A stretch of 24,274 bases of DNA. Source: a virus. Below, one piece after another: positions 1 to 16,680 of the stretch; within the stretch, counting starts at the first letter, position 1, and each line of letters begins with the position of its first letter. The stretch covers positions 1 to 24,274 of the IMG/VR virus record IMGVR_UViG_3300046507_000037; one strand, written 5' to 3'. Below the pieces are notes generated by a model, which saw only the letters and a program-made list of their open reading frames with translations, was not told the DNA's origin and ran no database searches. Both the position numbers and the translations under genes were made by a program.

Positions 1-2
1 AG

Positions 3-236
3 CGCGCCCACATCGCCGCGGTCAAGGAAATGGACTGCGGCGTTTGCGGAGCGACGGGCCCGAGCGACGCTCACGAACTGAAGCAGGGGCAATGGTTCAC
101 GAGCATCCCGCTGTGCAAGGACTGCCACCAGGGATCTTTCAACGGAATCCACGGCCAGCAGCGCATCTGGAAGGTGCTGAAGAAGGATGAGTTGTCGGTG
201 CTGAACGAGACGATAGAGAGGGTGGTGTACGGATGA
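3..236 (+). CDS. HNH/DUF968-like nuclease, 5' end outside window
   Basis: The reading frame is open from the first base of the window, so the gene starts upstream; an internal ATG at 30 is probably not the start. The visible part has two zinc-knuckle pairs, CGVCG and CKDCH, then a GIHG motif. This resembles the compact HNH-fold nucleases of the DUF968/Ref type found in phage recombination regions, where paired Cys/His residues hold a structural zinc and a His acts in catalysis. Its stop overlaps the start of the next nuclease gene in an ATGA, so the two are translationally coupled. A role in DNA processing is inferred from the family; the fragment is too short to name the member. Confidence 0.6.
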   Translation, partial: RAHIAAVKEMDCGVCGATGPSDAHELKQGQWFTSIPLCKDCHQGSFNGIHGQQRIWKVLKKDELSVLNETIERVVYG

Positions 237-541
237 AATACGCCCGACGCGCCGATGGCAACCAGGCAAAGATCGTCGAGGCATTGCGCGCGGCCGGCTG
301 CCGTGTGGTGCCCACTCATACGATCGGCCAGGGATTTCCTGACCTCATAGTCGATTACCACGGCCGCACTTGCCTGATCGAGATCAAAGACCCGACGCAA
401 GACCTCAACAAACGCAAGCTCACGCCCGCGCAAATAGAGTTTCACCGCATATGGACTGGGCCGCTTTACGTCGTCGAGACACCAGAATTCGCGGTGCTTT
501 GCGCGACCGGCAAGCCAATGGAGAAAGCAGCATGCCCTTAA
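233..541 (+). CDS. VRR-NUC domain nuclease (Holliday-junction-resolvase-like)
   Basis: A 102-aa protein covering almost exactly one VRR-NUC domain. It carries the PD-(D/E)XK-type pattern GFPDLIVDYHGRTCLIEIKD: Asp in the PDL strand, then the E-x-K of EIK, which coordinate metal in this nuclease superfamily. Stand-alone VRR-NUC proteins in phages are thought to cut branched DNA during replication or before packaging, in the place RusA or RuvC-like enzymes hold elsewhere. The start lies in an ATGA overlap with the preceding nuclease gene, and the end overlaps the next gene by 10 bases. The family assignment is good; the substrate is inferred. Confidence 0.8.
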   Translation: MKYARRADGNQAKIVEALRAAGCRVVPTHTIGQGFPDLIVDYHGRTCLIEIKDPTQDLNKRKLTPAQIEFHRIWTGPLYVVETPEFAVLCATGKPMEKAACP

Positions 542-744
542 CCGACTGGATCCCCTGCAAAACTGCGCCCGTGAGAGACGGCTGGTACGACGTGCAGCGA
601 AGGTTGCTCTGTGGCAGCGCGATTGCACCTGTTGAGCGAGTGCGATTCGCCAGCGGTAAATGGGACTGGAGAGCGTCCGAATCGAAGATGTCGGTATGGG
701 TAGGGATGGACTACTGGCGCGGCGTGACTGAGGAGAGCAAGTGA
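532..744 (+). CDS. Small conserved-type phage protein, 70 aa
   Basis: The ATG at 532 is preceded by a purine-rich GAGAAAG and begins ten bases before the VRR-NUC stop. Earlier in-frame starts would lie deep inside that gene. The protein is Trp-rich (DWIPC, GWYDV, KWDW, YWRG) with the layout W-x-P...G-Y/W-V...W, seen in many short proteins of phage early regions that are vaguely DUF551-like. No catalytic residues can be pointed to and no function is proposed. Its stop shares a base with the next ATG (TGATG), which supports it as a real operon member. Confidence 0.55.
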   Translation: MPLTDWIPCKTAPVRDGWYDVQRRLLCGSAIAPVERVRFASGKWDWRASESKMSVWVGMDYWRGVTEESK

Positions 745-848
745 TGACGGGATTCGTATGGTTCATGGCGTTCGCGTCGCTATGCGTTGGCAACGGTGGA
801 ACAGCGTTGGTCTGTTTCATCGCGCTAGCGCTGCATTACTTAGGCTGA
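744..848 (+). CDS. Tiny hydrophobic protein, 34 aa
   Basis: The ORF starts in a TGATG overlap with the upstream stop and encodes 34 residues, most of them hydrophobic, which could form a single membrane-spanning helix (MTGFVWFMAFASLCVG, then a second hydrophobic run ending ALHYLG). It fills the gap between two better-supported genes exactly, with a 11-base interval to the next start. Small membrane peptides are common in phage accessory operons, for example as holin-like or inner-membrane modulators, but nothing here fixes a role. It is real by position and coupling only. Confidence 0.4.
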   Translation: MTGFVWFMAFASLCVGNGGTALVCFIALALHYLG

Positions 849-859
849 CCGGAGAAAGC

Positions 860-1066
860 ATGAAACTCTGCAAAGACTGCAAATACTTTCAATCCAATGA
901 CTCGTACACCGGATTCCCTTTGTGTACACATGTCAATGCGCCGGTGAATCCGGTATGGGGACACAAAGACGGGTCGTGTCAACTGATGCGCAGCCCTAAC
1001 TGCCTGATCGCCAATTGCGGCCCTGATGGAGACTGGTTCGAACCAAAGCAACCGCAGCAAAACTGA
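860..1066 (+). CDS. Cys-rich putative zinc-binding phage protein, 68 aa
   Basis: The ATG at 860 follows a good ribosome-binding site (GGAGAAAG). The protein opens with MKLCKDCKYF and has further cysteines in PLCTH, GSCQL, SPNC and ANCGPDGDWFEP. The CxxC pair followed by spaced cysteines and a terminal CG..G.WFE motif is typical of small zinc-binding proteins in phage early operons. No enzyme motif is visible. It is probably a structural zinc protein that binds nucleic acid or protein; that is inference from the cysteine spacing. Confidence 0.6.
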   Translation: MKLCKDCKYFQSNDSYTGFPLCTHVNAPVNPVWGHKDGSCQLMRSPNCLIANCGPDGDWFEPKQPQQN

Positions 1067-1072
1067 CCGCTC

Positions 1073-1091
1073 GCCATCTGCGCACGATGGC
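1073..1091 (+). terminator. Hairpin, possible weak terminator
   Basis: GCCATC and GATGGC form a perfect 6-bp stem with a 7-base loop just after the stop at 1066, followed by only TTT. The short T tract makes strong intrinsic termination unlikely. It could instead be a processing or attenuation stem between two small genes. Confidence 0.3.
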
Positions 1092-1109
1092 TTTCAACGG
1101 GGAATGAGC

Positions 1110-1271
1110 ATGAAAGTACGGCAACGCATCAGGCTGACGCAGAAACGCCGCTGGCGTCCGTCGCTATGCGATCTGGTTAGCAGAACCATCAGAAAGAACC
1201 TGCCTGACCTGCTCGATACGATGGCGAGACATAACCCGCTGTTTCAGCGGCTGCAACGAATAGACGGCTGA
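1110..1271 (+). CDS. Small basic protein, 53 aa
   Basis: Two in-frame ATGs lie at 1104 and 1110. The GGGGA ribosome site directly abuts the first, so 1110 has the better spacing. The product is strongly basic at its start (MKVRQRIRLTQKRRW) with Arg/Lys throughout, compatible with nucleic-acid binding or a ribosome-associated role. No known family is recognised. The gene sits between a hairpin and a 20-base gap before the next start, in the same direction as all neighbours. Confidence 0.45.
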   Translation: MKVRQRIRLTQKRRWRPSLCDLVSRTIRKNLPDLLDTMARHNPLFQRLQRIDG

Positions 1272-1291
1272 CATATTAATCGGGGAATCAC

Positions 1292-1639
1292 ATGCGACCA
1301 CGCAAAAACCTACTTGTCCTGTCGCCCGATAACCTCAAGGCGAATCTGATCCCCGGTCGCCTCTACACGACGGCGAAGCTTTCATGCATGTTCGACGCTT
1401 CGCCGTCCGCCATCGCCGAAGTTCTCATTACGCTCGAAGCATCCGGCATCGTCAACACCTCCCAGCCGATCTGTGGCCGCGCGCGAGACATGAGACCGGA
1501 GCGCCGCATCTACTGGATTCCGCTCTACACCCGCACCGATGTCGCCGCGCGCCGGATTGGCCCGGCTGAATCCAAAGCCGAACTCACAGGTTATGACCTG
1601 ACACGATTCCAACGGCTTGCAATGACCTCTCGCCGCTGA
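1292..1639 (+). CDS. Winged-helix-like small protein, 115 aa
   Basis: The ATG is preceded by a clear CGGGGAA site. The central segment runs GRLYTTAKLSCMFDASPS, then AIAEVLITLEASGIV, then a basic strand containing RRIYWIP. That order (helix, turn, recognition-like helix, hydrophobic strand pair) resembles a winged helix-turn-helix, so it may bind DNA and regulate. The match is by pattern only and no family name is assigned. It is the last gene before a putative promoter at 1641, so it probably closes the upstream operon. Confidence 0.45.
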   Translation: MRPRKNLLVLSPDNLKANLIPGRLYTTAKLSCMFDASPSAIAEVLITLEASGIVNTSQPICGRARDMRPERRIYWIPLYTRTDVAARRIGPAESKAELTGYDLTRFQRLAMTSRR

Positions 1640-1640
1640 G

Positions 1641-1666
1641 ATTGGCGCTATCTACAATTTTCGGCA
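1641..1666 (+). promoter_or_regulatory. Repeated intergenic element, copy A (putative promoter)
   Basis: Copy A reads ATTGGCGCTATCTACAAT with a downstream CGGCA. It shares ATT..CGCTA.CTA...T...C.GCA with copies at 9601 and 16112 in ungapped alignment. TACAAT at 1653-1658 matches a sigma-70 -10 box at five of six positions. There is no convincing -35 box (TCGCCG at 1630), so an activator or phage-specific factor may be needed. It lies ahead of the RMF-like and terminase genes. Confidence 0.5.
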
Positions 1667-1688
1667 TCCACCTGATGGAAAACTGGCG

Positions 1689-1865
1689 ATGCTGAGCCGC
1701 GAGCAGATCGAGACATTAATGCGCGAGGGAGCCGAGGCTTTCGAGCGCGGCATGTCCAAAGGCAATTGCCCTTATCCGGTTCTAAGCACGCCATTCGCAA
1801 CCTGGATGCGTGGCTATCAAAACGCGGCCTACGGGGCTGCACAACTGGAGAAGCACCATGTCTGA
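1689..1865 (+). CDS. RMF/CrpP-like small protein, 58 aa
   Basis: A 58-aa protein with the ribosome modulation factor pattern: EGAEAFERG, then GNCPYPV, then WMRGYQNAAY, i.e. A..G...CPY......W..G(W/Y)..A. In Escherichia coli RMF the same CPY and WxxGW features help dimerise 70S ribosomes in stationary phase; phage and plasmid relatives are called Rmf/CrpP family and their functions are mostly untested. The start is chosen at 1689 behind a weak GGAA; an ATG at 1675 stops at once. It is the first gene after promoter-like element A and overlaps the next gene by 8 bases. An effect on host translation is inference from the family. Confidence 0.65.
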   Translation: MLSREQIETLMREGAEAFERGMSKGNCPYPVLSTPFATWMRGYQNAAYGAAQLEKHHV

Positions 1866-2331
1866 TCCCGTCGCAGAGGCAGCAGCACAATTGGCCGAAC
1901 AGGCAGAACAGACGCAGGAGGCTGGCACGGCCACTGTGGGGGAGTCCAATGTTGCCGCTGGTGCGGCTGTGACACCCGCTGGTTCGGATGCTTCTGCGAA
2001 CGTCGCTGGTGGTGACCTCCCAAACGCTGCACCGGCTGCGGTCGAATCTACAACCGAGCCGGGCTCTGCACCGTCTGCCGATGGCGCAAATACCACGTCG
2101 CCCATCGCCGAAAGTTCCGTTGAGCCGCTGCATGTTCGCGTAGCCGCGCATCTCGAAGCCATTTTCCAGATGGTCAAGATTGACGCAGAGCGCGCACCGA
2201 CAGAAGCCGAGTCGCACGCCGAGCACGTCAAGACGCACATCGGCGACGTGCTGCACCGGATCAGCAATGGCATGGCAGTCGCTGAGGGCGAGCTGGTGCA
2301 GAAGCTCGAAGCGCTGTATCGGATGCTGTGA
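1858..2331 (+). CDS. Acidic Ala-rich hypothetical protein, 157 aa
   Basis: The ATG at 1858 has a GGAGAAG site at good spacing and overlaps the RMF-like stop. Residues 1-90 are Ala, Thr, Ser, Glu and Pro rich and probably disordered; the rest (from about VEPLHVRVAAHLEAI) looks like one or two amphipathic helices ending EALYRML. The composition recalls small accessory proteins upstream of terminase genes. No catalytic motif or known family is recognised. It ends one base before the terminase small-subunit ATG, which places it in the packaging operon. Confidence 0.55.
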   Translation: MSDPVAEAAAQLAEQAEQTQEAGTATVGESNVAAGAAVTPAGSDASANVAGGDLPNAAPAAVESTTEPGSAPSADGANTTSPIAESSVEPLHVRVAAHLEAIFQMVKIDAERAPTEAESHAEHVKTHIGDVLHRISNGMAVAEGELVQKLEALYRML

Positions 2332-2332
2332 A

Positions 2333-2593
2333 ATGGCTGCCCGTCTCCGCAAAACGCATCAGGAGGAAGTGCGCACCAAGATTCAGGTGAGTCAGCTTCT
2401 GAACGTTTTGCAAAATCATGCACTTGGTACGTTGGAGGAATTGGCGCCGACGCGCCTCCGCGCCATCGAAATCCTGCTGAAGAAAACACTGCCCGACCTG
2501 TCTCAGACCGAGCTTACAGGCGCTGATGGCGGGCCGATCCAAGTTGAGCGCGTGCGACTGAAGATGACTCCGGTACAGGAACTGCCGGAATGA
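2333..2593 (+). CDS. terS: Terminase small subunit
   Basis: An 86-aa protein placed just upstream of the large terminase. It follows the pattern of short phage TerS proteins: a basic N-terminus, KIQVSQLLNVLQNHALG, then TRLRAIEILLKKTLPDLSQT, ending in a GGPI segment. TerS recognises the phage pac site and loads DNA into the TerL motor. The segment between about residues 15 and 65 probably forms the helical DNA-binding and oligomerisation core. The ATG at 2333 is separated from the previous stop by a single base. Its end is an ATGA overlap with the next gene. The call rests on sequence pattern and position together. Confidence 0.8.
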   Translation: MAARLRKTHQEEVRTKIQVSQLLNVLQNHALGTLEELAPTRLRAIEILLKKTLPDLSQTELTGADGGPIQVERVRLKMTPVQELPE

Positions 2594-2787
2594 ACGACGA
2601 GCGCGACCACTTCGACGAACGATTGGGGAACAGCCGCATGGGTACGCAAGCGAAACCGCATCTTCGAAAGTTCATGGGTGGATGGTGCTGCTTTCTCAGG
2701 GTTGCTGATCTCGGCTATCAATGGGTTGGCATTGGCGCAAGTATGCGCGGCGCTTATGACGACTGGTGCGAACGACCGTTGCCATGA
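2590..2787 (+). CDS. Small protein between TerS and TerL, 65 aa
   Basis: The gene is joined by ATGA overlaps at both ends, to terS and to terL, which makes it a convincing member of the packaging operon despite its size. The N-terminal third is charged (NDERDHFDERLGNSR); the second part, GGWCCFLRVADLGYQWVG, is hydrophobic and contains a Cys-Cys pair, then YDDWCER. I do not recognise a family. Its position suggests a packaging accessory role or simple translational relay to terL. Confidence 0.5.
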   Translation: MNDERDHFDERLGNSRMGTQAKPHLRKFMGGWCCFLRVADLGYQWVGIGASMRGAYDDWCERPLP

Positions 2788-4247
2788 ATGCCGATGAGAT
2801 CGAGATTCCCCACAACTGGAGCCCACGCATCTATCAGGGGCGGCTCTGGAACGCGATGATCGGCGGCTGCAAGCGCGCCATTGACATCGCGCATCGTCGC
2901 TGGGGCAAGGATGACGTGTGCCTTCATTGGACGTGTCTTGCTGCCCATGATCGTATCGCCAGCTACTGGCACATGCTGCCCATGGCATCGCAGGCACGTA
3001 AAGCGATCTGGGAAGCCATCAACCCGCACACAGGCCGCCGCCGCATTGACGAAGCGTTCCCGCACGAGCTGCGCGCCAGCACGCGGGAAAACGACATGAT
3101 GATCAAGCTGAAGTGCGGATCGACATGGCAGGTGCTCGGCTCGGACAACTTCGATAGCCTGGTCGGTTCGCCGCCGGCGGGTCTCGTGTTCTCCGAATGG
3201 GCACTGTGCAATCCGGCCGCATGGGCTTATCTCAAGCCGATTCTCGACGAAAACGGCGGCTGGGCGATGTTCATCACGACGCCGCGGGGAAAGAACCACG
3301 CCTACCAGATGTATCAGATGGCGAAGAACAACCCGAAATGGTTCGCCGAGGTCTCGAACGTCCTGAAAACGGGCCGTTTCTCGCGTGCTGAGCTTGAAGA
3401 GCAGCGCTCTGAATACGTCGCCATGTACGGCGAGGATCAGGGCAACGCGATGTTCGAGCAGGAGCTGATGTGCAGCTTCGACGCCGCGATCCTGGGTGCC
3501 TACTACGGCATGGAAATGAGCGCCGCGGAGAACGAAGGGCGCATTACCAGCGTTCAGCATGATCCGGCGCTGCCTGTCTACACGGCATGGGACTTGGGAC
3601 GGACGGACGACACCAGCATCTGGTTCTTCCAGACGCATTGGGGCGAGATTCGCATCATTGACCACTACAAGGCGAGCGGGAAAGACCCGAAGCATTACGC
3701 CGAGGTCATTCACGGCCGGAAGATCGAGGTATCAGAGTATGGCGAGAACGGCAAGCCGGTGAAATGGAAGCTCGGCGAACCGATTCCCGAACATGCTCAC
3801 CATATCGCCTACCGGTACGGTCGGCACTGGCTGCCGCACGACGCGCGCCCCAAGAGCTTCGCATCGCCGCGCTCGGCGATCGAGCAACTGAACGATTTCA
3901 ACGTCAAGTCGTTCATCGTGCCTAGCCTCAGTGTTCAGGACGGCATTCAGGCCGCGCGCGCCACGCTCAAGCATTGCTATTTCGATGAGAAGCGCTGCGA
4001 GTTCGGGATCGAGTCGCTGAAGAACTACCGTCGGGAGTGGGATGAGGACGCGAAGATCTTCACTGACAAGCCGGTCCATGACTGGACGAGTCATGCCGCA
4101 GACGCGTTCCGCTACATGTCGCTGGTATGGCGCAATCCTGAGAGCGAAAAGCCGGTCGAGAAGCCGCGATTCCTGCATGACATGACGGCGAATGAAATCT
4201 TCTGGCCGCAGCAGAACGCCAACGCGCCGGCTCGGGAGCGCATCTGA
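2784..4247 (+). CDS. terL: Terminase large subunit (packaging ATPase and nuclease)
   Basis: A 487-aa motor protein that drives DNA into the prohead and cuts the concatemer. The N-terminal ATPase has a deviant Walker A, HRRWGKDD (about residues 37-44), Walker B GLVFSEW (133-139) with Glu138 as likely catalytic carboxylate, and the coupling motif ITTPRGKNH (164-172). The C-terminal RNase-H-like nuclease shows AWDLGRTDD (Asp270), LPHD (Asp353) and HAADAFRYM (Asp440) as plausible metal ligands. The start at 2784 is preferred over a GTG at 2766 because it forms an ATGA overlap with the preceding gene. The length is usual for this family. Confidence 0.95.
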   Translation: MNADEIEIPHNWSPRIYQGRLWNAMIGGCKRAIDIAHRRWGKDDVCLHWTCLAAHDRIASYWHMLPMASQARKAIWEAINPHTGRRRIDEAFPHELRASTRENDMMIKLKCGSTWQVLGSDNFDSLVGSPPAGLVFSEWALCNPAAWAYLKPILDENGGWAMFITTPRGKNHAYQMYQMAKNNPKWFAEVSNVLKTGRFSRAELEEQRSEYVAMYGEDQGNAMFEQELMCSFDAAILGAYYGMEMSAAENEGRITSVQHDPALPVYTAWDLGRTDDTSIWFFQTHWGEIRIIDHYKASGKDPKHYAEVIHGRKIEVSEYGENGKPVKWKLGEPIPEHAHHIAYRYGRHWLPHDARPKSFASPRSAIEQLNDFNVKSFIVPSLSVQDGIQAARATLKHCYFDEKRCEFGIESLKNYRREWDEDAKIFTDKPVHDWTSHAADAFRYMSLVWRNPESEKPVEKPRFLHDMTANEIFWPQQNANAPARERI

Positions 4248-4456
4248 TGTACAGCACGAACGATCTTCAGAAGCTCGTGCAGATGCTGTCATTTCTCGGC
4301 TATTCGCCGAGTCCGGTTTCGTGGGGCGGCGGGGCGGTAAGGCCGGCATCACCGACGCTCTATCAGCAATGGTTCGACACAGCAATAGGGCAGCCAGTGT
4401 GGTGCACACAAACATCGCCCGCTATATGGGTTAACGCTGCCGGGGTGCAGGTATGA
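4247..4456 (+). CDS. Small phage protein with fibre-type FDTxIGxPVW motif, 69 aa
   Basis: The start shares a base with the TerL stop (TGATG), and the stop overlaps the next start (ATGA). The second half, RPASPTLYQQWFDTAIGQPVW followed by AIWVNAAG, is the common phage module RP..PT....FDT..G.P.WW.G..WV.A.G, usually found at the ends of tail-fibre-like or neck proteins. The first half is a short helix-like segment. The protein is complete and not an obvious fragment. Its exact role in the virion is unknown; the coupling suggests joint expression with the signal-peptide genes downstream. Confidence 0.6.
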   Translation: MYSTNDLQKLVQMLSFLGYSPSPVSWGGGAVRPASPTLYQQWFDTAIGQPVWCTQTSPAIWVNAAGVQV

Positions 4457-5589
4457 AGCGGATTTTTCTAATTGCTCTCGCGCTGGTAAGTGGAATCTGC
4501 TCGGCGCAGACCTTCAATGTCAATAACCTCGCGGTGGCGGGCACGTCTACGCATACCGGCGCGGCGACATTCTCTATCCGGCCGACGTTCAACGGGAACA
4601 CGCCGTGGGATAGCGGAAATTTCAATCCGTCGAGCTATGCAACGCTGGCTAGCCCTGCATTCACTGGTGTTCCTGTAGCCCCCACGGCAGCGGTCGGCAC
4701 GAATACCACACAGGTTGCGACGACAGCTTTTGCAAATAGCGCTGCGCAGAATCCATCGGCAGTCAACGTTGCTTACCAGAACACATATGCACCCGGTGTT
4801 CGGGCGCCGCTGTTTATCTGGCAGAACCCGAATGGATCGACTGCGGCTGGGTATAACTCCGGCCTGCAAATATGGATTGGCAACAATCCAACTGCCACGC
4901 CCGGAGCGAACGATACTGTCGCCTCTACGATGGCAGTAACCAATGGGAATAACAGGTTCAACCTGTGGGATCAGAATCTTCTTGTAGGGTTGTGCGGTCC
5001 CGCCGAAGGGTGCTCGACCAGTGATTATTTGAATGGCCCTGTGACAGGCCAGGAGATCGATGTTTATGGTTCTGCTTCATGGACGCCGACGAATAGGGCA
5101 TTCAACCCTACGGTTGGAACCTATCCAATAGAAGGTCAGCAGGTCTACTGCCAGGGCCCGCAATACTGCACGACAGCCTATTCAGCATGGTCTACCGCTT
5201 CCAATGGCTCTAACTGGTGGAAAGAAGGGATAGCTCTAAACCGGATAGCCGATATCGGTCTGCATTTCGTCATCACGCCAGGGGATACGGGGGCATCTTT
5301 CGGCACTGCGGCAATTCAGGATGACAGCAACAGCGTTAATGTCATTGGTGTTGGAAGCGGCACGCATACGAACATTCTCAGTGCCCCAAACATCACCATC
5401 AAGAATTCCGGTGTCGTCATCCCTGGCTCATACAACGTCGCGACGCTGCCCACATGCAACGCTGGCATTCAGGGTGGCATTGCATATGTGCATGACGCGA
5501 GTGCCCCGGCCTATAACTCTGCGCTCGTGGGCGGCGGAACCGTCGCTGTCCTCGCGTTTTGCACTGGCTCTGCGTGGACTGCTCACTAA
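4453..5589 (+). CDS. Fibre-like protein with N-terminal signal peptide, 378 aa
   Basis: The protein begins with a classic Sec signal peptide: MKR, a hydrophobic core, and a cleavage-like site GICSA|QTF near residue 18. Residues 67-97 form a fibre-type module (ASPAFTG.P.APTA, then NTTQVATTAFANSA). The middle is Asn/Gly/Thr rich, and the end (SYNVATLPTC...FCTGSAW) is a typical fibre C-terminal domain. The mature form has six cysteines, arranged as C181/C187, C233/C239 and C335/C370, consistent with disulfides formed after export. The gene lies between terminase and portal in a stretch of lower GC than its neighbours. It could be a virion fibre or an exported lysogenic-conversion protein; the sequence does not decide. 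Confidence 0.65.
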   Translation: MKRIFLIALALVSGICSAQTFNVNNLAVAGTSTHTGAATFSIRPTFNGNTPWDSGNFNPSSYATLASPAFTGVPVAPTAAVGTNTTQVATTAFANSAAQNPSAVNVAYQNTYAPGVRAPLFIWQNPNGSTAAGYNSGLQIWIGNNPTATPGANDTVASTMAVTNGNNRFNLWDQNLLVGLCGPAEGCSTSDYLNGPVTGQEIDVYGSASWTPTNRAFNPTVGTYPIEGQQVYCQGPQYCTTAYSAWSTASNGSNWWKEGIALNRIADIGLHFVITPGDTGASFGTAAIQDDSNSVNVIGVGSGTHTNILSAPNITIKNSGVVIPGSYNVATLPTCNAGIQGGIAYVHDASAPAYNSALVGGGTVAVLAFCTGSAWTAH

Positions 5590-5599
5590 GGAAACGACT

Positions 5600-6529
5600 A
5601 TGAAAGCTCTTATTGCATTGCTGGCGTTCGTTGCATCAACTGCATTTGGCACGACGCTTAATCCTGTTCAACTTCTCAATCCTGCTGGATCGACTAGCGG
5701 ACAGGCGATTGTTTCAACGGGCGCATCGAGCGCCCCAGCCTGGGCAAATGTGGCCGCTACGGCGCTTGCAGCGCAAGCTGCAAATACGGTGGTGGGGAAT
5801 GCTACTAGCTCAAGCGCGAGTCCCACGGCAATAACCGTGACGGGTTGCAACGGTGCCGCACAAGCCCTGCAATGGACGAATGGGTCTGGATTTGGCTGCA
5901 ATTCGGCAATCGCCACGTCTGGAGCAAACAGCAACATCACCAGCCTTAACGCGCCGGCTCTTGGTGCCGCGACTGCAACGACCGCTGCGGCCACCACAAA
6001 CACCACCCAGGTCGCCACGACGGCGATGGTTAATTCAGCGATTACCGGCGGCAGTCTTGCGGGCACTTTCACGAAACTGGTCGCAAGCGGAAATGATGCG
6101 CTCAACTATTACACCGTTTCCGGTCAAACAATTGCTTCATCGACAAATGTCACTCTGACCGGCTACACGAAGGTATATGACAGAGTCAATTTGAACTTTA
6201 ATGCCTCGACTGGAACATTTACTGCACCTTCCGAGTGTTCAGTGACCTGCTATTACCAGGTTTCGGGGCAGGTCGTTTATGCGGCTGCCGCTGGGGTAGT
6301 AAATGCCCAATATTCTGCAAGCGTTGTCGTCAACGGATCTCCGGTATGCAACGGTCAGGTATTTCAACAAAGTACTGGCACCGAGGCTATTACAGTTCCA
6401 TTTAGTTGTACGGTTGCAGTCACTAACGGGCAGACGATACTGATTCAGGCATTTCAGAACACTGGAGCAAGTAGAACTCTCGGGACAATTGCTAATACCA
6501 ATATGCTTTCCATTGCCCGCCTTCCTTAA
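5600..6529 (+). CDS. Signal-peptide protein with C-terminal C1q-like domain, 309 aa
   Basis: The ATG at 5600 follows AAGGAAA; longer in-frame starts lie inside the upstream gene. Residues 1-17 (MKALIALLAFVASTAFG) look like a Sec signal peptide. Residues 134-147 repeat the NTTQVATTA..NSA module of the preceding gene. From about 190 to the end the pattern STGTFTAP, YYQVSGQVV, GQTILIQAF and MLSIARLP matches C1q/TNF-like jelly-roll domains, which form trimers at phage fibre tips and in secreted adhesins. Six cysteines are present in the mature region (83, 100, 203, 207, 230, 250). Several 60-base lines here are only 42-50% GC, against about 65% in the portal line at 7201, suggesting separate acquisition. 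Confidence 0.65.
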   Translation: MKALIALLAFVASTAFGTTLNPVQLLNPAGSTSGQAIVSTGASSAPAWANVAATALAAQAANTVVGNATSSSASPTAITVTGCNGAAQALQWTNGSGFGCNSAIATSGANSNITSLNAPALGAATATTAAATTNTTQVATTAMVNSAITGGSLAGTFTKLVASGNDALNYYTVSGQTIASSTNVTLTGYTKVYDRVNLNFNASTGTFTAPSECSVTCYYQVSGQVVYAAAAGVVNAQYSASVVVNGSPVCNGQVFQQSTGTEAITVPFSCTVAVTNGQTILIQAFQNTGASRTLGTIANTNMLSIARLP

Positions 6530-9589: not shown

Positions 9590-9600
9590 TTGCCGCACAG

Positions 9601-9626
9601 ATTCCCGCTACCTAGCATGTACCGCA
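9601..9626 (+). promoter_or_regulatory. Repeated intergenic element, copy B (putative capsid promoter)
   Basis: Copy B reads ATTCCCGCTACCTAGCAT with a downstream CCGCA. It matches copy C at its first ten bases and shares the same invariant columns with copy A. TAGCAT (9613-9618) is the -10-like hexamer. TTGCCG (9590-9595) sits 17 bases upstream as a partial -35, the best of the three copies. It precedes the scaffold, capsid and decoration genes. Confidence 0.5.
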
Positions 9627-9648
9627 TGCAAATAAGCGGGGATTGGAA

Positions 9649-10671
9649 ATGACGGTCGAAAGTCAGGTAGGCGAAACGGGCGAAGTCGAGCAGGAAACAG
9701 AGCTTTCTCTGCGCGACGAACTGGTCAGGAATCTCGCCGAATTGAAGGGCGATCCTGAGACTGTCGAACCCGTTGCAAAGCCGACGGAAACGAAGGTCGA
9801 GCCCGCTGACGCCGCACCGGAAAAGACCGAGACGAAAGAGGCAACCCCAGCCGAACCGTCAAACGAGTCGAAAGCCAAAGCCCCGCAATCCTGGTCGGCC
9901 GCCGAAAAGGCGCATTGGGACAAGATCCCGCCCGAAGTGCAGGCCGTCATTGCGCGCCGCGAAGAAGAAGCACACCGCGGCATCACGACGCTCGGCCAGG
10001 ACGCAGCCCTCGGCAAGAAGCTGAAGGATGTCATTAACCCATACCTCCCTATGATCCGCGCAGAAGGCGGCGATGAAGCCGGCGCGGTTCGGGATCTTCT
10101 CCAGACTGCCTACATCCTGCGCACGGCAAGCCCCGAGCAGAAGATCGGCGTTTTCCGGCATCTGGCAGGACAGTTTGGAGTGGATTTAGCAGTCGCTGCT
10201 CAAGGCGTTCCACAGGTTGACCCTCAGTTGCAATCACTCCAGCGCGAGCTTGCTCAACTGAAAGGCCATCTGACGAGCGCCGAGCAGCAGCAACATCAGC
10301 AGATACAGGGGCAGGCTCAAGCCATGATCGAAGCCTTCGCTGCCGATCCTAAGAATGAGTTCTATGAACAGGTGAAGCCGCTCATGGCCCATCTCCTGGT
10401 CGCAGGACAGGCTAAGGATATGCAGGAGGCGTACGACATGGCGTGCCATGCGAACCCTGATGTTCGTTCCACAATTCTGACCCGCCAGCAGGCGGAATCA
10501 GAGGCGAAGCGGGCAGCCGAGGCGAAAGCCAAAGCTGATGCGAAGCGTAAGGCGGCAGGATCGATTAGCGGATCACCGGCGGGCACTGTCTCGACGACGA
10601 TCGCAGCGAACCCGGACCTCTCACTACGCGATCAATTGCGGCAAGCGATGCGAGCCGCGACAACTTCGTAA
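9649..10671 (+). CDS. Capsid scaffold protein
   Basis: A 340-aa acidic, Ala/Glu-rich protein directly upstream of the major capsid gene, where scaffold is expected. It has a disordered N-terminus (about 1-85), a conserved-type core PQSWSAAEKAHWDKIPPEVQ followed by ARREEEAHRGI, a helical middle, and a basic C-terminal helix (SEAKRAAEAKAKADAKRKA) that would bind capsid shell subunits. Scaffold guides prohead assembly and then leaves. The ATG at 9649 is preferred over a TTG at 9643, because GGGGA at 9638-9642 is six bases from the ATG. Confidence 0.8.
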   Translation: MTVESQVGETGEVEQETELSLRDELVRNLAELKGDPETVEPVAKPTETKVEPADAAPEKTETKEATPAEPSNESKAKAPQSWSAAEKAHWDKIPPEVQAVIARREEEAHRGITTLGQDAALGKKLKDVINPYLPMIRAEGGDEAGAVRDLLQTAYILRTASPEQKIGVFRHLAGQFGVDLAVAAQGVPQVDPQLQSLQRELAQLKGHLTSAEQQQHQQIQGQAQAMIEAFAADPKNEFYEQVKPLMAHLLVAGQAKDMQEAYDMACHANPDVRSTILTRQQAESEAKRAAEAKAKADAKRKAAGSISGSPAGTVSTTIAANPDLSLRDQLRQAMRAATTS

Positions 10672-10689: not shown

Positions 10690-11679
10690 ATGGCCCTGCA
10701 AAATCCGTCGAGCACTCTCACGGAAATTGTCACGACCACGCTTCGCAACCGCACCGGGAAGCTGGCTGACAACATCACGAAGAACAACGCCCTGTTGTTC
10801 CGCCTCCGCAAACGCGGCAACGTCAAGACCGTCTCCGGCGGTCGGACCATCGTTCAGGAACTCGAATATGCCGAAAACGGCACGTTCAAGCGCTACAGCG
10901 GTTATGAAGCGCTGAACATTTCGCCGTCCGACGTGTTCACCGGCGCGGAATACAACTACGCGCAGGCAGCCGTGGCCGTCTCGATCTCCGGTCTGGAACA
11001 ACTCCAGAACACCGGCGAGGAAGCGATCATCGACCTGCTCGAATCGCGTATCAAGAACGCAGAGAAGACGCTCGTCAACAACATCGCGCTCGACTGCTAT
11101 TCGGACGGCACCGCTGACGGCGGCCGGCAGATTGGCGGCCTCGCGCTGCTCGTGTCGAACACGCCGACGACCGGCGTTGTGGGTGGTATCGACGCATCGA
11201 CGACCGTCGGCAGCTTCTGGCGCAACCTGAAGTTCTCGGGTGTCACGGACGGCGGCGGCGCCACGACCTCGGCGAACATCCAGTCGTACATGAACCGCCT
11301 GTACGTGCAGCTCGTGCGTCAGACGGACAAGCCCGACCTGATCATCGCCGACAACAACTATTTCCGCCTGTATCTGGAATCGTTGCAGGCCATCCAGCGC
11401 ATCACGTCGAACGAAATGGGCGAAGCGGGCTTCGACTCGCTGAAGTACATGAATTCGGACGTGGTTCTGGACGGTGGTTTCGGCGGCGGCGCACCGGCAA
11501 GCACGATGTATTTCCTGAACACGGATTACATCTACTTCCGCCCGCACGTCGATCGCAACTTCGCACCGATCGGTGACGACCGGTACGCAGTCAACCAGGA
11601 CGCGATGGTCAAGCTGGTCGGCTTCGCCGGCAACATGACCACGTCCAATCGCCGCCTTCAGGGCGTTCTGATCGCCTAA
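10690..11679 (+). CDS. Major capsid protein
   Basis: A 329-aa protein following scaffold with a good TGGAG site. It has the sequence style of a short HK97-fold capsid subunit: NPSSTLTEIVTTTLRNR, then KTVSGGRTIVQELEYAENGT, a central helical spine (GEEAIIDLLESRIKNAEKTL), and a beta-rich P-domain ending RRLQGVLIA. The length is close to the roughly 330-residue capsid protein of BPP-1-type podophages, whose HK97 fold is circularly permuted; whether that holds here needs a structure prediction. GC and codon use are uniformly high-GC with many C-ending codons, as expected for an abundant protein. Confidence 0.85.
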   Translation: MALQNPSSTLTEIVTTTLRNRTGKLADNITKNNALLFRLRKRGNVKTVSGGRTIVQELEYAENGTFKRYSGYEALNISPSDVFTGAEYNYAQAAVAVSISGLEQLQNTGEEAIIDLLESRIKNAEKTLVNNIALDCYSDGTADGGRQIGGLALLVSNTPTTGVVGGIDASTTVGSFWRNLKFSGVTDGGGATTSANIQSYMNRLYVQLVRQTDKPDLIIADNNYFRLYLESLQAIQRITSNEMGEAGFDSLKYMNSDVVLDGGFGGGAPASTMYFLNTDYIYFRPHVDRNFAPIGDDRYAVNQDAMVKLVGFAGNMTTSNRRLQGVLIA

Positions 11680-13903: not shown

Positions 13904-16111
13904 ATGCGCCGACCCGTCAACCGCGCGCCCCGCCTGCAAACAGAAACGCTTCCGCCGCCCGTCGGCGGCCTGAATACGCTAGATGCGGTGTCGAACATGC
14001 CGCCCACTGATGCGGTCATTCTGGACAACTATTTCCCCGGCACCGCAGATGTGCCGCTGCGCAATGGTTACCAGACGTGGGGCTCTGGCCTGACGAACGT
14101 CGAAACGTTGGCTGTCTATACGGCCGGAACGATCAAGAAGATGTTCGCGGTGTCGAAGGGCAACGTCTACGACGTGTCCGCGAATCAGCCGATCGGCGCC
14201 GGGAATGTCGTCGTTGAAGGCCCATTTGTGGCCGGCGCGCAGTTCACCGGCGGCGTCACGACGACTCTTCCGCTATCTAAAACCTACGCAAAGTCCGCCG
14301 ACATCATAGTCCACTTCGACGGCCAGTATCAGGGCTACGACCAGTACACAGTAGGTCCGAACAGCATCACGTTCACGTCGCCGATACCGGTCGGTGTGAA
14401 TCAGGTCTACATCGAGAGCATCGGCGCGCTGACAGCGAATATCGTTGCCGAGGGGCCATTTACCGGCGTCGGCGGTCAGACATCGCTCACCCTCTCCCAG
14501 CCCTACGCAGGCCCGACAAACCTGCTCGTATGGTTCGACGGCACGTATCAGGGACCTGACCAGTACACGCTCGCCGGCAAGGTGCTGACCTTCACCTCGG
14601 CGATTCCCACGTTCACATCGACGGTCTATATCGTTGCAGTGGCGGTCGGGAATGTCGTGCAGGAAGGGCCATTCGCTGCAAGTGGACAGACCACGCTTAC
14701 GCTATCGCAAGGCTACCCGAGTTCGGCGAACCTGCTGGTTCACTTTGATGGCGTGTTTCAGAGCCCGGATCAGTACACGCTCAGCGGCAAGACGCTGACG
14801 TTCACCGCAGCGGTCCCGACGGGAATCAGCAAGATCTATCTGATAGCGATCGGCGCTCCAGTCGTCTCAGGGCTCACGAATTCCCGCTGGCAGTATGTGA
14901 ACTTCAGCAACGCCGGTGCGGATTTCCTGGTGATGGTGAATGGGGTAGATGCGCCGCTCGTCTATAACGGCACAGGCTGGCAGCAGATTACCAACTCATC
15001 GACCCCGATTGCGATTACCGGCGTCGATCCTTCGACATTCGTCAGCGTCAACGTATTCGCCCAGAGGCTGTGGTTCGCCAAACTGAACACGACGCAGGCA
15101 TGGTATCTGCCGGTCGGTCAGGTCGGTGGCGCGGCCAATGTGCTCGACATCGGTTCGGAATTGACGCTGGGCGGTTTCCTGGCTGGCATGGCGACATGGA
15201 ACATTGACGACTCGGCGGGCCTGAATCCTTACCTCGTGCTGGTGAGTTCGGTCGGTGAAGCTGTGGTGTATCAGGGCTCCGATCCTTCGCAGGCGAATGC
15301 CTTCGGGATCTCTGCACACTTCCGCATTGGCGCGCCGACTGGCCGCCGCTTCTATGAGAAGTACGGTTCGGACATCGTATTCATCGGGGCGGACGGCCTG
15401 ACGCCGCTCAGCAAAGCCTTGCTAAGCGATCGTTCCGAGCGCAATGAAACGCTCACGCGCAAGATCAGCCCGAGCGTTACCGCAGACGTGGCTGCGTATG
15501 GCTCGCATTTCGGCTGGCAGGTGATTCTGTATCCCGACGGCAATAAGCTGCTGGTGAACGTGCCGACGGCTGAGGATTCGGTCTCCTACCAGTACGTCAT
15601 GAACACGCTGACGAATGCATGGTGCCGCTTCACCGGGTGGAATTCGACCTGTTTTGCCTATTACAACAGCGGCCTGTTCTTCGGCGGCCCGAACGGTGTC
15701 GCGCAGGCGGATGTGGGCAATGACGATGGCGGCAACGCGATCAACGCGGACATCAAACCGGCGTTCAACTATTTCAACATGCGTGGCGTGCAGAAGTATT
15801 TCAAGATGGTCCGCCCGGTGTTCCTCGCCAATTCGCCATTCTCGTTGCAGATGGATCTATCGGTCGATTTCAGCAATTCTTTGCCGACTTCGACGCCTGG
15901 ATTCTCTCAGGGCTTCTCGACGCCATGGGACACAACGCCCTGGGATCAGGTGCCGTGGAACGGTGCGCAGATCATCCAGTCGGACTGGCAATCGATCGAC
16001 GGTATCGGATACGCGGCGACCTACCGCATGCGAACCCAGACGAAAGGCGTGGCCTATTCAATCGAATCCGCAACTTTCATGTACGAGCCGCAGACACAGC
16101 TAACGCTCTGA
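13904..16111 (+). CDS. Tail hub / tubular-B-like protein with triple repeat
   Basis: A 735-aa beta-rich protein placed after the adaptor, where short-tailed phages encode the tail nozzle or hub. The N-terminus (PPPVGGLNTLDAVSNMPPTDAVILDNYFP) and the later blades with WQYVNFSNAGADFLVM, RLWFAKLNTTQAWYLP and GADGLTPLSKALL resemble tail tubular protein B-type beta-propellers. Residues 101-319 interrupt this with three tandem copies of a 70-78 residue domain (see repeat). The C-terminus ends in a sandwich-like region (TYRMRTQTKGVAYSIE). It would form the lower tail tube and attachment platform for fibres. The ATG is preceded by a modest ACGGA site three bases from the adaptor stop. Confidence 0.7.
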   Translation: MRRPVNRAPRLQTETLPPPVGGLNTLDAVSNMPPTDAVILDNYFPGTADVPLRNGYQTWGSGLTNVETLAVYTAGTIKKMFAVSKGNVYDVSANQPIGAGNVVVEGPFVAGAQFTGGVTTTLPLSKTYAKSADIIVHFDGQYQGYDQYTVGPNSITFTSPIPVGVNQVYIESIGALTANIVAEGPFTGVGGQTSLTLSQPYAGPTNLLVWFDGTYQGPDQYTLAGKVLTFTSAIPTFTSTVYIVAVAVGNVVQEGPFAASGQTTLTLSQGYPSSANLLVHFDGVFQSPDQYTLSGKTLTFTAAVPTGISKIYLIAIGAPVVSGLTNSRWQYVNFSNAGADFLVMVNGVDAPLVYNGTGWQQITNSSTPIAITGVDPSTFVSVNVFAQRLWFAKLNTTQAWYLPVGQVGGAANVLDIGSELTLGGFLAGMATWNIDDSAGLNPYLVLVSSVGEAVVYQGSDPSQANAFGISAHFRIGAPTGRRFYEKYGSDIVFIGADGLTPLSKALLSDRSERNETLTRKISPSVTADVAAYGSHFGWQVILYPDGNKLLVNVPTAEDSVSYQYVMNTLTNAWCRFTGWNSTCFAYYNSGLFFGGPNGVAQADVGNDDGGNAINADIKPAFNYFNMRGVQKYFKMVRPVFLANSPFSLQMDLSVDFSNSLPTSTPGFSQGFSTPWDTTPWDQVPWNGAQIIQSDWQSIDGIGYAATYRMRTQTKGVAYSIESATFMYEPQTQLTL
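14204..14860 (+). repeat. Three tandem domain repeats within the tail hub gene
   Basis: Units begin at 14204, 14438 and 14651 (residues 101, 179 and 250). Each starts N(I/V)V.EGPF, continues through L-LS-.Y...., a strand ending in FDG.(Y/F)Q, then DQYT, ITFTS or LTFT, and a final strand (VYI, VYI, IYL). The layout is like fibre-attachment or adhesion domains with a V.(F/L)DG...P..Y signature. Copies 2 and 3 are more alike than copy 1. The codons have diverged, so the duplication is not recent. Confidence 0.85.
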
Positions 16112-16137
16112 ATTCCCGCTATCTACACTAAGCGGCA
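16112..16137 (+). promoter_or_regulatory. Repeated intergenic element, copy C (putative promoter)
   Basis: Copy C reads ATTCCCGCTATCTACACT with a downstream CGGCA. It shares CGCTATCTACA with copy A and its first ten bases with copy B. TACACT (16124-16129) is the -10-like hexamer; the region 17 bases upstream (TAACGC) is not a recognisable -35. It begins at the tail hub stop codon and precedes the acetyltransferase and ejection-protein genes. Confidence 0.5.
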
Positions 16138-16144
16138 GATTTTC

Positions 16145-16203
16145 CATCTTCATGCATGCGGGGTTCCCCGCGGTAAAAGATGCGCTCAGCAGACGCGCAT
16201 CTT
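16145..16203 (+). promoter_or_regulatory. Structured leader with alternative pairings
   Basis: Downstream of element C, AAGATGCGC (16177-16185) pairs perfectly with GCGCATCTT (16195-16203) across a 9-base loop. The same AAGATG could instead pair with CATCTT at 16145-16150, enclosing a GCGGGG/CCCCGC hairpin (16158-16171). The two folds exclude each other. No T tract follows, so any control would act on translation or mRNA stability rather than by simple termination. Confidence 0.45.
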
Positions 16204-16233
16204 CGTCCAGCTTTGCGCATCGGGAAAGCACTG

Positions 16234-16680
16234 ATGAAACGCATTGTCTGGGATCAACCCGAACGGATTATGAGGTTTGTCGCTGATCGCGTAGGCGAGG
16301 AATCGTTTCGCGATTACACGGCGCTTGGCCTTGAAAAAGACGGCGAACTGACCGCGGGCGTGCTGTTCACCAATTACACGCAGGCGTCGATCGTGATGCA
16401 TGTCGCCTCTGATGGCTCGCGTCACTGGATCACGCCGGCTTTCCTTGCAGCCACCTTCCGCTATCCCTTTGTGCAGCTCGGTGTTCGTCGAGTAACGGGC
16501 CTCGTGCGCGCGGATAACGCGGATGCACAGCGCTTTGACGAGCACCTCGGATTCCGGCGTGAAGGAATCCTGCGCGAAGGCACGACGGATGGATGCGACC
16601 TGATTCTTTACGGCATGCTCAAGAGCGAATGCCGCTTCCTACAGGAGAGGCTGCGTGCGGCACTTCAACGAATTTCCTGA
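16234..16680 (+). CDS. GNAT-family acetyltransferase, 148 aa
   Basis: The ATG at 16234 has a CGGGAAAG site; an earlier in-frame ATG at 16180 lies within the leader hairpin and is less likely. The protein follows the GNAT fold: a strand with ELTAGVLFTNY, then ITPAFLAATFRYPFVQLGVRRVTGLV, and the C-terminal signature ADNADAQRFDEHLGFRREGILREG. GNAT enzymes move an acetyl group from acetyl-CoA to an amine; the pyrophosphate-binding loop is weak here, as in several phage members. The substrate is unknown. Its place ahead of virion genes is seen in related podophages and suggests modification of a virion or host protein. It overlaps the next gene by 26 bases. Confidence 0.75.
   Translation: MKRIVWDQPERIMRFVADRVGEESFRDYTALGLEKDGELTAGVLFTNYTQASIVMHVASDGSRHWITPAFLAATFRYPFVQLGVRRVTGLVRADNADAQRFDEHLGFRREGILREGTTDGCDLILYGMLKSECRFLQERLRAALQRIS

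Follow-up and report, generated by a model that had tools for sequence, protein, structure and literature searches.

The DNA analyzed here, called the window, is the stretch of 24,274 nucleotides of IMG/VR virus record IMGVR_UViG_3300046507_000037. On the plus strand, positions 1689–1865 encode a 58-residue protein, MLSREQIETLMREGAEAFERGMSKGNCPYPVLSTPFATWMRGYQNAAYGAAQLEKHHV, which carries CPY at residues 27–29 and W-x-x-G-Y (WMRGY) at residues 39–43, as a preliminary description of the locus had reported. A promoter-like element lies directly upstream (1640–1663, plus strand; window copy GATTGGCGCTATCTACAATTTTCG); it is probably the "element A" after which that description had placed this gene as the first one.

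The genes from 1689 to 4247 share one strand and abut or overlap their neighbors. The second encodes an Ala/Glu-rich protein of 157 residues (1858–2331) with no assigned family; no PHROG matched it at E ≤ 0.01, and Pfam gave a weak Apolipoprotein match far below the cut-off. The ATG of this gene falls within the final 8 nt of the 58-residue frame, which also contains a GGAG ahead of it, and this suggests translational coupling of the two genes. An 86-residue product (2333–2593), without a family match in the PHROG or Pfam searches, may be a small terminase judging by its position, and the next reading frame codes for a 65-residue protein (2590–2787) with no assigned family and no PHROG match. 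The large terminase (2784–4247) was recognized by phrog_2 (E 1.3e-27) and by tblastn to annotated terminases, and had no Pfam match at E ≤ 0.5. Within 1689–4247, the large terminase and the protein related to ribosome modulation factor (RMF) were the only products identified by profiles. The gene at 1689–1865 stands at the head of the unit on the same strand as the terminase, so that its assignment to a packaging operon holds, and it may be expressed late, as had also been proposed. Upstream of the unit, the product of positions 233–541 is small and resembles nucleases (E 2.5e-10 with the endonuclease family phrog_93; the VRR-NUC and Hjc profiles scored below their cut-offs). A near-identity search of the whole window against the phage collection gave no match.

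Relatives of the 58-residue protein were found in IMG/VR (n = 19: 16 by protein search, two by family alignment, and one, on a contig whose 38,083 bases equal contig 39 of G059 in length, by way of a distant member), on a contig of Paraburkholderia madseniana RP11, and on a 3.2-Mb replicon of Burkholderia cenocepacia (58% identity, E 3e-11). The start position is conserved, with a Val codon replacing ATG in L008, L017, L020, L021, and L023 (GTG in L008 and L021, the two whose bases were inspected). Over codons 2–50 of 17 distinct sequences (136 pairs), mean pS was 0.567 and mean pN 0.198; in the 55 pairs kept, those with pS < 0.6 and more than three synonymous differences, dN/dS had a median of 0.22 and a maximum of 0.48. 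The gene is under purifying selection. The tail LEKHHV overlaps the start of the next gene, and other tails occur in L017, L020, L021, L023, and L037. Because the ATG at 1858 overlaps this tail and the tails of distant members differ, LEKHHV is unlikely to be a signature of the protein. The short length of the frame and a C-terminus constrained by the next gene's start would fit a spurious ORF, open by chance or through the overlap, but this reading has next to no probability and is refuted by the profile matches described below, the 19 IMG/VR relatives, a dN/dS of about 0.22, the conserved start, and the confident predicted fold. ORF 1689–1865 is a real, conserved gene.

Family assignment and predicted fold

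The preliminary description had related the protein to RMF and CrpP, and had proposed a profile search against the RMF family, with a lack of any similarity counting against the claim. Similarity was found: Pfam PF04957 (RMF) matched with 32.2 bits (E 1.1e-7), over its gathering score of 27.9, and NCBIfam NF041886 (Rmf/CrpP) with 36.2 bits (E 3.2e-9), over its cut-off of 28. All 11 aligned clade members match NF041886 at E ≤ 1, and some are under the Pfam RMF cut-off as six-frame matches (G003, 24.4 bits; G004, 26.3 bits). The narrower models were missed. The protein obtained 24.9 bits with the equivalog of true RMF (NF011162, cut-off 40), 20.2 with the CrpP family (NF033696, cut-off 55), and 18 with the CrpP-related family of NCBIfam (cut-off 35). 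The equivalog named for phage Rmf-like proteins (NF041887, "Rmf/CrpP fold protein") also matched (E 2.1e-6) and the protein differs from its members by a score, 27.1 bits, under the cut-off of 40. Judged by these profiles, NF041886 is the level at which the protein is to be filed, and with the fold prediction in agreement the family name is right at the Rmf/CrpP level.

AlphaFold2 models built from an 11-sequence alignment had mean pLDDT values of 91.9, 91.1, 89.6, 72.3, and 71.1, and the best of them consists of helices 4–19 and 34–56. In a Foldseek search of the PDB, RMF chains took ranks 1–3 with probabilities of 0.99, 0.95, and 0.87, at poor E values (0.2–1.0); the remaining matches had probabilities of 0.09 or less. 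VIA-align 2 superposed the model on four RMF chains (Z 7.5, 6.7, 6.7, and 6.2; rmsd 2.1–3.4 over 51–57 residues), and the unrelated chain 8r5w also reached Z 6.5, with the others listed at 3.5 or less. Values of Z below 8 can reflect a common arrangement of helices, and since all of these are below 8, the call of an RMF fold rests on fold and profile together. On that joint basis, the predicted structure is the two-helix RMF fold. It shares this fold (Z 6.2–7.5) with Escherichia coli RMF (PDB 6h4n, 9iot, and 4v8g) and Vibrio parahaemolyticus RMF (2jrm), together with the glycines G16 and G23 of RMF, CPY, and the W..G motif.

In a library of viral structures, the best E value was 2.6e-3, many phage proteins matched with a probability of 1.00, and four of the 50 matches listed were named "Ribosome modulation factor". 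Phage-borne proteins with this fold are thus an already known kind, since the library holds many and some are so named. In the open-access literature, we recognized no account of an RMF-like protein carried by a phage.

Distribution in phages and the upstream element

A search based on the terminase yielded 58 loci, 17 of them at ≥86% identity and 41 at ≤64%. The RMF-like gene was present in 15 of the 17 close relatives (14 by hmmsearch and L016 by protein search); the contigs of the other two (L088 and L095) begin too near the terminase to include its place. In the 41 distant loci, of which 34 had at least 2 kb upstream, there was no RMF-like match at E ≤ 1, so packaging by this type of terminase needs no RMF-like gene. 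The same gene order was found in L017, L020, L021, L023, and contig 39 of G059, whose terminases are 66–79% identical. Given its presence in 15 of 17 close loci, the lack of a match in the 41 distant ones, and the maintained order, the gene belongs to the core of one Paraburkholderia/Burkholderia phage clade. Among the seven best-ranked named terminase relatives, the six covered (H86–H89, H91, and H92) had no RMF-like gene over the cut-off, in a search whose control also gave matches below the cut-off in eight genomes besides E. coli; one of the six had a 12.7-bit RMF match that contains stops. An apparent second copy in G006 (L032, 11.6 bits) was rejected by eye as spurious, as it is antisense to what appears to be a low-complexity, Gln-rich coding stretch. 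In G002, the terminase match (L066, 7802–10096) is in two pieces about 800 nt apart, and this terminase gene may therefore be interrupted.

The upstream element is shared by the window and the 21 loci aligned, with 18–25 nt from the element to the RMF-like start, and is most divergent in L037. In L003, L009, and L012, about 100–360 extra nt separate the upstream gene from the element, which still lies 18–25 nt ahead of the RMF-like gene. The consensus is TTsCCGyTrcCTAnnAT, where TAnnAT has the shape of a −10 hexamer. A position weight matrix (PWM) trained on 13 upstream copies, with a threshold of 16 bits that was picked after the scores had been seen, found 25 sites in eight phage contigs (three or four in each of seven, and two in contig 39 of G059) and none in 40 Markov-1 simulations. 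Eight of the 25 lie beside the RMF-like gene and are training copies or equal to one; the other 17 are new. Two plus-strand copies recur in the window. Copy 2 (9600–9623; 25.2 bits, outside the training set, and also a pattern match with two mismatches) precedes the gene at 9643–10671 and the major head protein (10690–11679). Copy 3 (16111–16134) is weaker, at 16.0 bits, and precedes the gene at 16180–16680; in G002, G003, G005, G006, and G007 it has counterparts that are followed by similar sequence, and the counterpart in G004 has diverged further. Both element copies in G059 contig 39 carry CCCGGGGTCTA, a variant absent from the other 23 sites, which would follow if a single factor read every copy in a genome. 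Only two of the 41 distant terminase loci had a plus-strand site of ≥14 bits.

We infer that the element is a phage late promoter. A scan for consensus sigma-70 promoters found one site in positions 1–6000 (2.3 expected) and none at 1640–1663, so that an activator or another sigma factor would be needed. The profile of single-subunit phage RNA polymerase (PF00940) had no match in seven records, but likewise none in the 14 control genomes, so that this result carries no weight on what reads the element.

Genes for RMF-like proteins are also present in other phages. The products of gene 5/6 of the Streptomyces phages Cumberbatch, Tubberson, SV1, and relatives are 34–46% identical over 76–95% of the query (E 4e-4 to 0.7). 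Like the gene in the window they are among head genes, but their hosts are actinobacteria and they follow the portal and protease instead of preceding the terminase. In the three Streptomyces phages inspected, the gene lies between the capsid maturation protease and the scaffolding protein; in Alderaan the annotations at these positions are minor capsid protein (the protease place) and nuclease (the scaffolding place). Among 36 Streptomyces records, which include many GenBank/RefSeq duplicates, 35 have the gene at a similar coordinate. In the T4-like phage Muldoon the gene is between helicase and primase, and in Caulobacter phage CcrBL9 and a Rhizobium phage it is among genes mostly without known function. 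Because these three lie outside annotated head operons, an RMF fold does not by itself imply a role in head assembly.

Functional residues of RMF and the host genus

In E. coli, RMF binds the ribosome through R3, K5, and R11, of which R3 and K5 contact helix 28 of 16S rRNA, and dimerizes through G23 and R45; its partner is HPF (excerpts of PMC8778775). In our alignment with E. coli RMF, K5 corresponds to S3, R11 to T9, G23 to G21, and R45 to Q44. R3 corresponds to M1, as the structural ranges of three RMF chains start at residue 1 of the model and residue 3 of the chain. The ribosome-binding residues thus have no equivalents in the window protein, and the dimerization pair is broken: G23 alone of the five is retained. 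All 11 clade sequences have Q44, and nine keep the glycine equivalent to G23, which is lost in L023 and L037.

The charge of the protein also differs. Residues 1–15 carry a net charge of −1 in the window protein and of −2 to 0 across the clade (n = 11), against +5 in E. coli RMF. Over the whole length, the clade sequences range from −3 to +2 (n = 11), and the window protein, with a net charge of 0 and a pI of 6.7, is not the small basic protein that RMF is (+7, pI 10.9). Two of the 11, L023 and L037, are basic, with calculated pI values of 9.1 and 9.4.

The residues common to RMF relatives that are kept are G14, G21, C27-P28-Y29, W39, and G42. The strongest conservation lies in a clade-specific string of helix 2, RGYQNA (R41-G42-Y43-Q44-N45-A46), identical in all 11 clade sequences. 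With four of the five residues changed and the basic charge lost, the residues that make the fold are kept and most functional residues of RMF are gone. Residues and profiles together indicate that this is probably not a canonical RMF. The preliminary description had suggested a hibernation factor that slows translation or protects ribosomes; on these residues, the neutral charge, and the 24.9 bits against the cut-off of 40 of the true-RMF equivalog, such a function is doubtful. Of that account, family and placement stand, and the residues do not support the hibernation function.

In the genus of the P. madseniana record, at least 17 of 97 genomes had an RMF-profile match at E ≤ 0.01 and at least two were over the cut-off. 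The corresponding figures for Burkholderiaceae were at least 22 and at least nine of 200 genomes, with prophage and chromosomal matches pooled except in G059, where the contig with the RMF-like gene also carries the terminase and portal of this phage type. In the P. madseniana genome itself (G001), the sole match at E ≤ 0.01 was the phage gene (24.4 bits, under the cut-off). The host genus likely has no core RMF, in which case there is no host RMF for a phage factor to imitate. This is likely and not proven, because the family and genus searches scored, in most genomes, only some of the first-look candidates (31 and 60 per genome), and because members of the clade can score under the cut-off. 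The S30AE (HPF) domain was present in 21 of 21 genomes of the genus, and the C-terminal domain of long HPF in none of the 21 (the control was positive in eight of 14 genomes). The host therefore seems to have a short HPF and neither a core RMF nor the C-terminal domain of long HPF, which raises the question of 100S formation in this genus.

Possible roles of the protein

Precedent exists for RMF relatives that may have other jobs. The Pseudomonas aeruginosa homologue PA3049/BatR is described, in the excerpted text of PMC13411936, as having no RMF hibernation role and as interacting with the Ser/Thr kinase SrkA; it differs from the window protein in being chromosomal and gammaproteobacterial and in its C-terminal extension of 15 residues.

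A protein that still modulates the ribosome would bind the 30S platform near the anti-Shine-Dalgarno and slow or bias late translation, with or without 100S particles. The RMF fold, the Pfam score over threshold, the retained equivalent of G23, and the HPF domain in all 21 host-genus genomes, HPF being the partner of RMF in E. coli (PMC8778775, in excerpt), are in its favor, and contacts with the ribosome could still be made by other residues. We nevertheless regard it as rather unlikely, given the loss of R3, K5, R11, and R45, an N-terminus that is neutral or acidic in 11 of 11 clade sequences, the low score with NF011162, and a host genus that likely has no core RMF (at least two of 97 genomes over the cut-off), so that no host RMF would be mimicked. 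A more particular proposal is improbable: a host with only short HPF would receive an RMF-type partner from the phage, and its ribosomes would be silenced late through contacts made without a basic N-terminus. If true, infection would switch on a form of ribosome silencing of which the host alone is incapable. Much less credible is a protein of the CrpP type, relatives of Rmf reported to modify ciprofloxacin: the window protein matches the same NCBI superfamily model but falls far from both CrpP cut-offs (20.2 of 55 and 18 of 35), and crpP-like genes are reported not to be tied to resistance in every case (PMC7918633, in excerpt).

The protein might instead act on the host, for instance as an inhibitor or adaptor of a host enzyme, and merely be sited at the head of the late unit. 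Its small size, the position of RMF-fold genes outside head operons in other phages, the binding of a host kinase by BatR (PMC13411936, in excerpt), and the joining of the RMF fold to FtsK_gamma, which suggests a reusable module, would agree with such a role. The strict position beside the terminase and the core status are more typical of a late-phase function (a timing that is itself presumed), and we hold this host-directed role to be unlikely, slightly more so than ribosome modulation.

We tentatively favor, ahead of both ribosome modulation and host-directed regulation, an accessory protein of the late phase that has the RMF fold, binds a protein partner in packaging or head assembly, and does not form 100S particles. 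The protein would be made first, from the presumed late promoter, and the face of helix 2 that bears RGYQNA would bind its partner in the late phase without any formation of 100S particles. To guess from the position of the gene, the partner would probably be a packaging or head-assembly product of the same unit; that a protein is bound at all is a prediction. For the accessory role speak the profiles and the fold, the changed residues and lost charge, the invariant RGYQNA string, the core status of the gene, the second lineage (Streptomyces phages) with such a gene among head genes, and the BatR precedent. The element at 1640–1663 also stands ahead of two further blocks of genes in this phage. 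We count against the accessory role the RMF-like genes outside head operons, the 41 distant terminase loci without the gene, and the pI values of L023 and L037.

Small RMF-fold genes turn up here and there among phages, either under the name "ribosome modulation factor" or uncharacterized. The present case shows that such a label can fit the fold and yet be at odds with what the residues say about function. Being a core gene that opens a packaging unit, in phages of a host genus showing no core RMF, it makes a compact system in which this can be tested.

The RMF-like stretch also occurs in larger proteins. Two Burkholderiaceae proteins of 286 and 294 residues (L039, 988–1848; L045, 1276–2160, minus strand) combine it (26.8 and 22.3 bits, where Pfam requires 27.9) with FtsK_gamma (89 and 81 bits, over the cut-off), and an RMF fold beside a DNA-binding domain was unexpected. 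Other parts of L045 have relatives in Pseudomonas phages annotated as FtsK-like. By eye, L042 and L046 resemble these two proteins, and L038 and L047 consist of the RMF-like part without FtsK_gamma. A protein of 118 residues (L041, 1426–1782, minus strand) has two stretches that match the RMF profile (37.8 bits for the whole protein), and L054 looks alike by eye.
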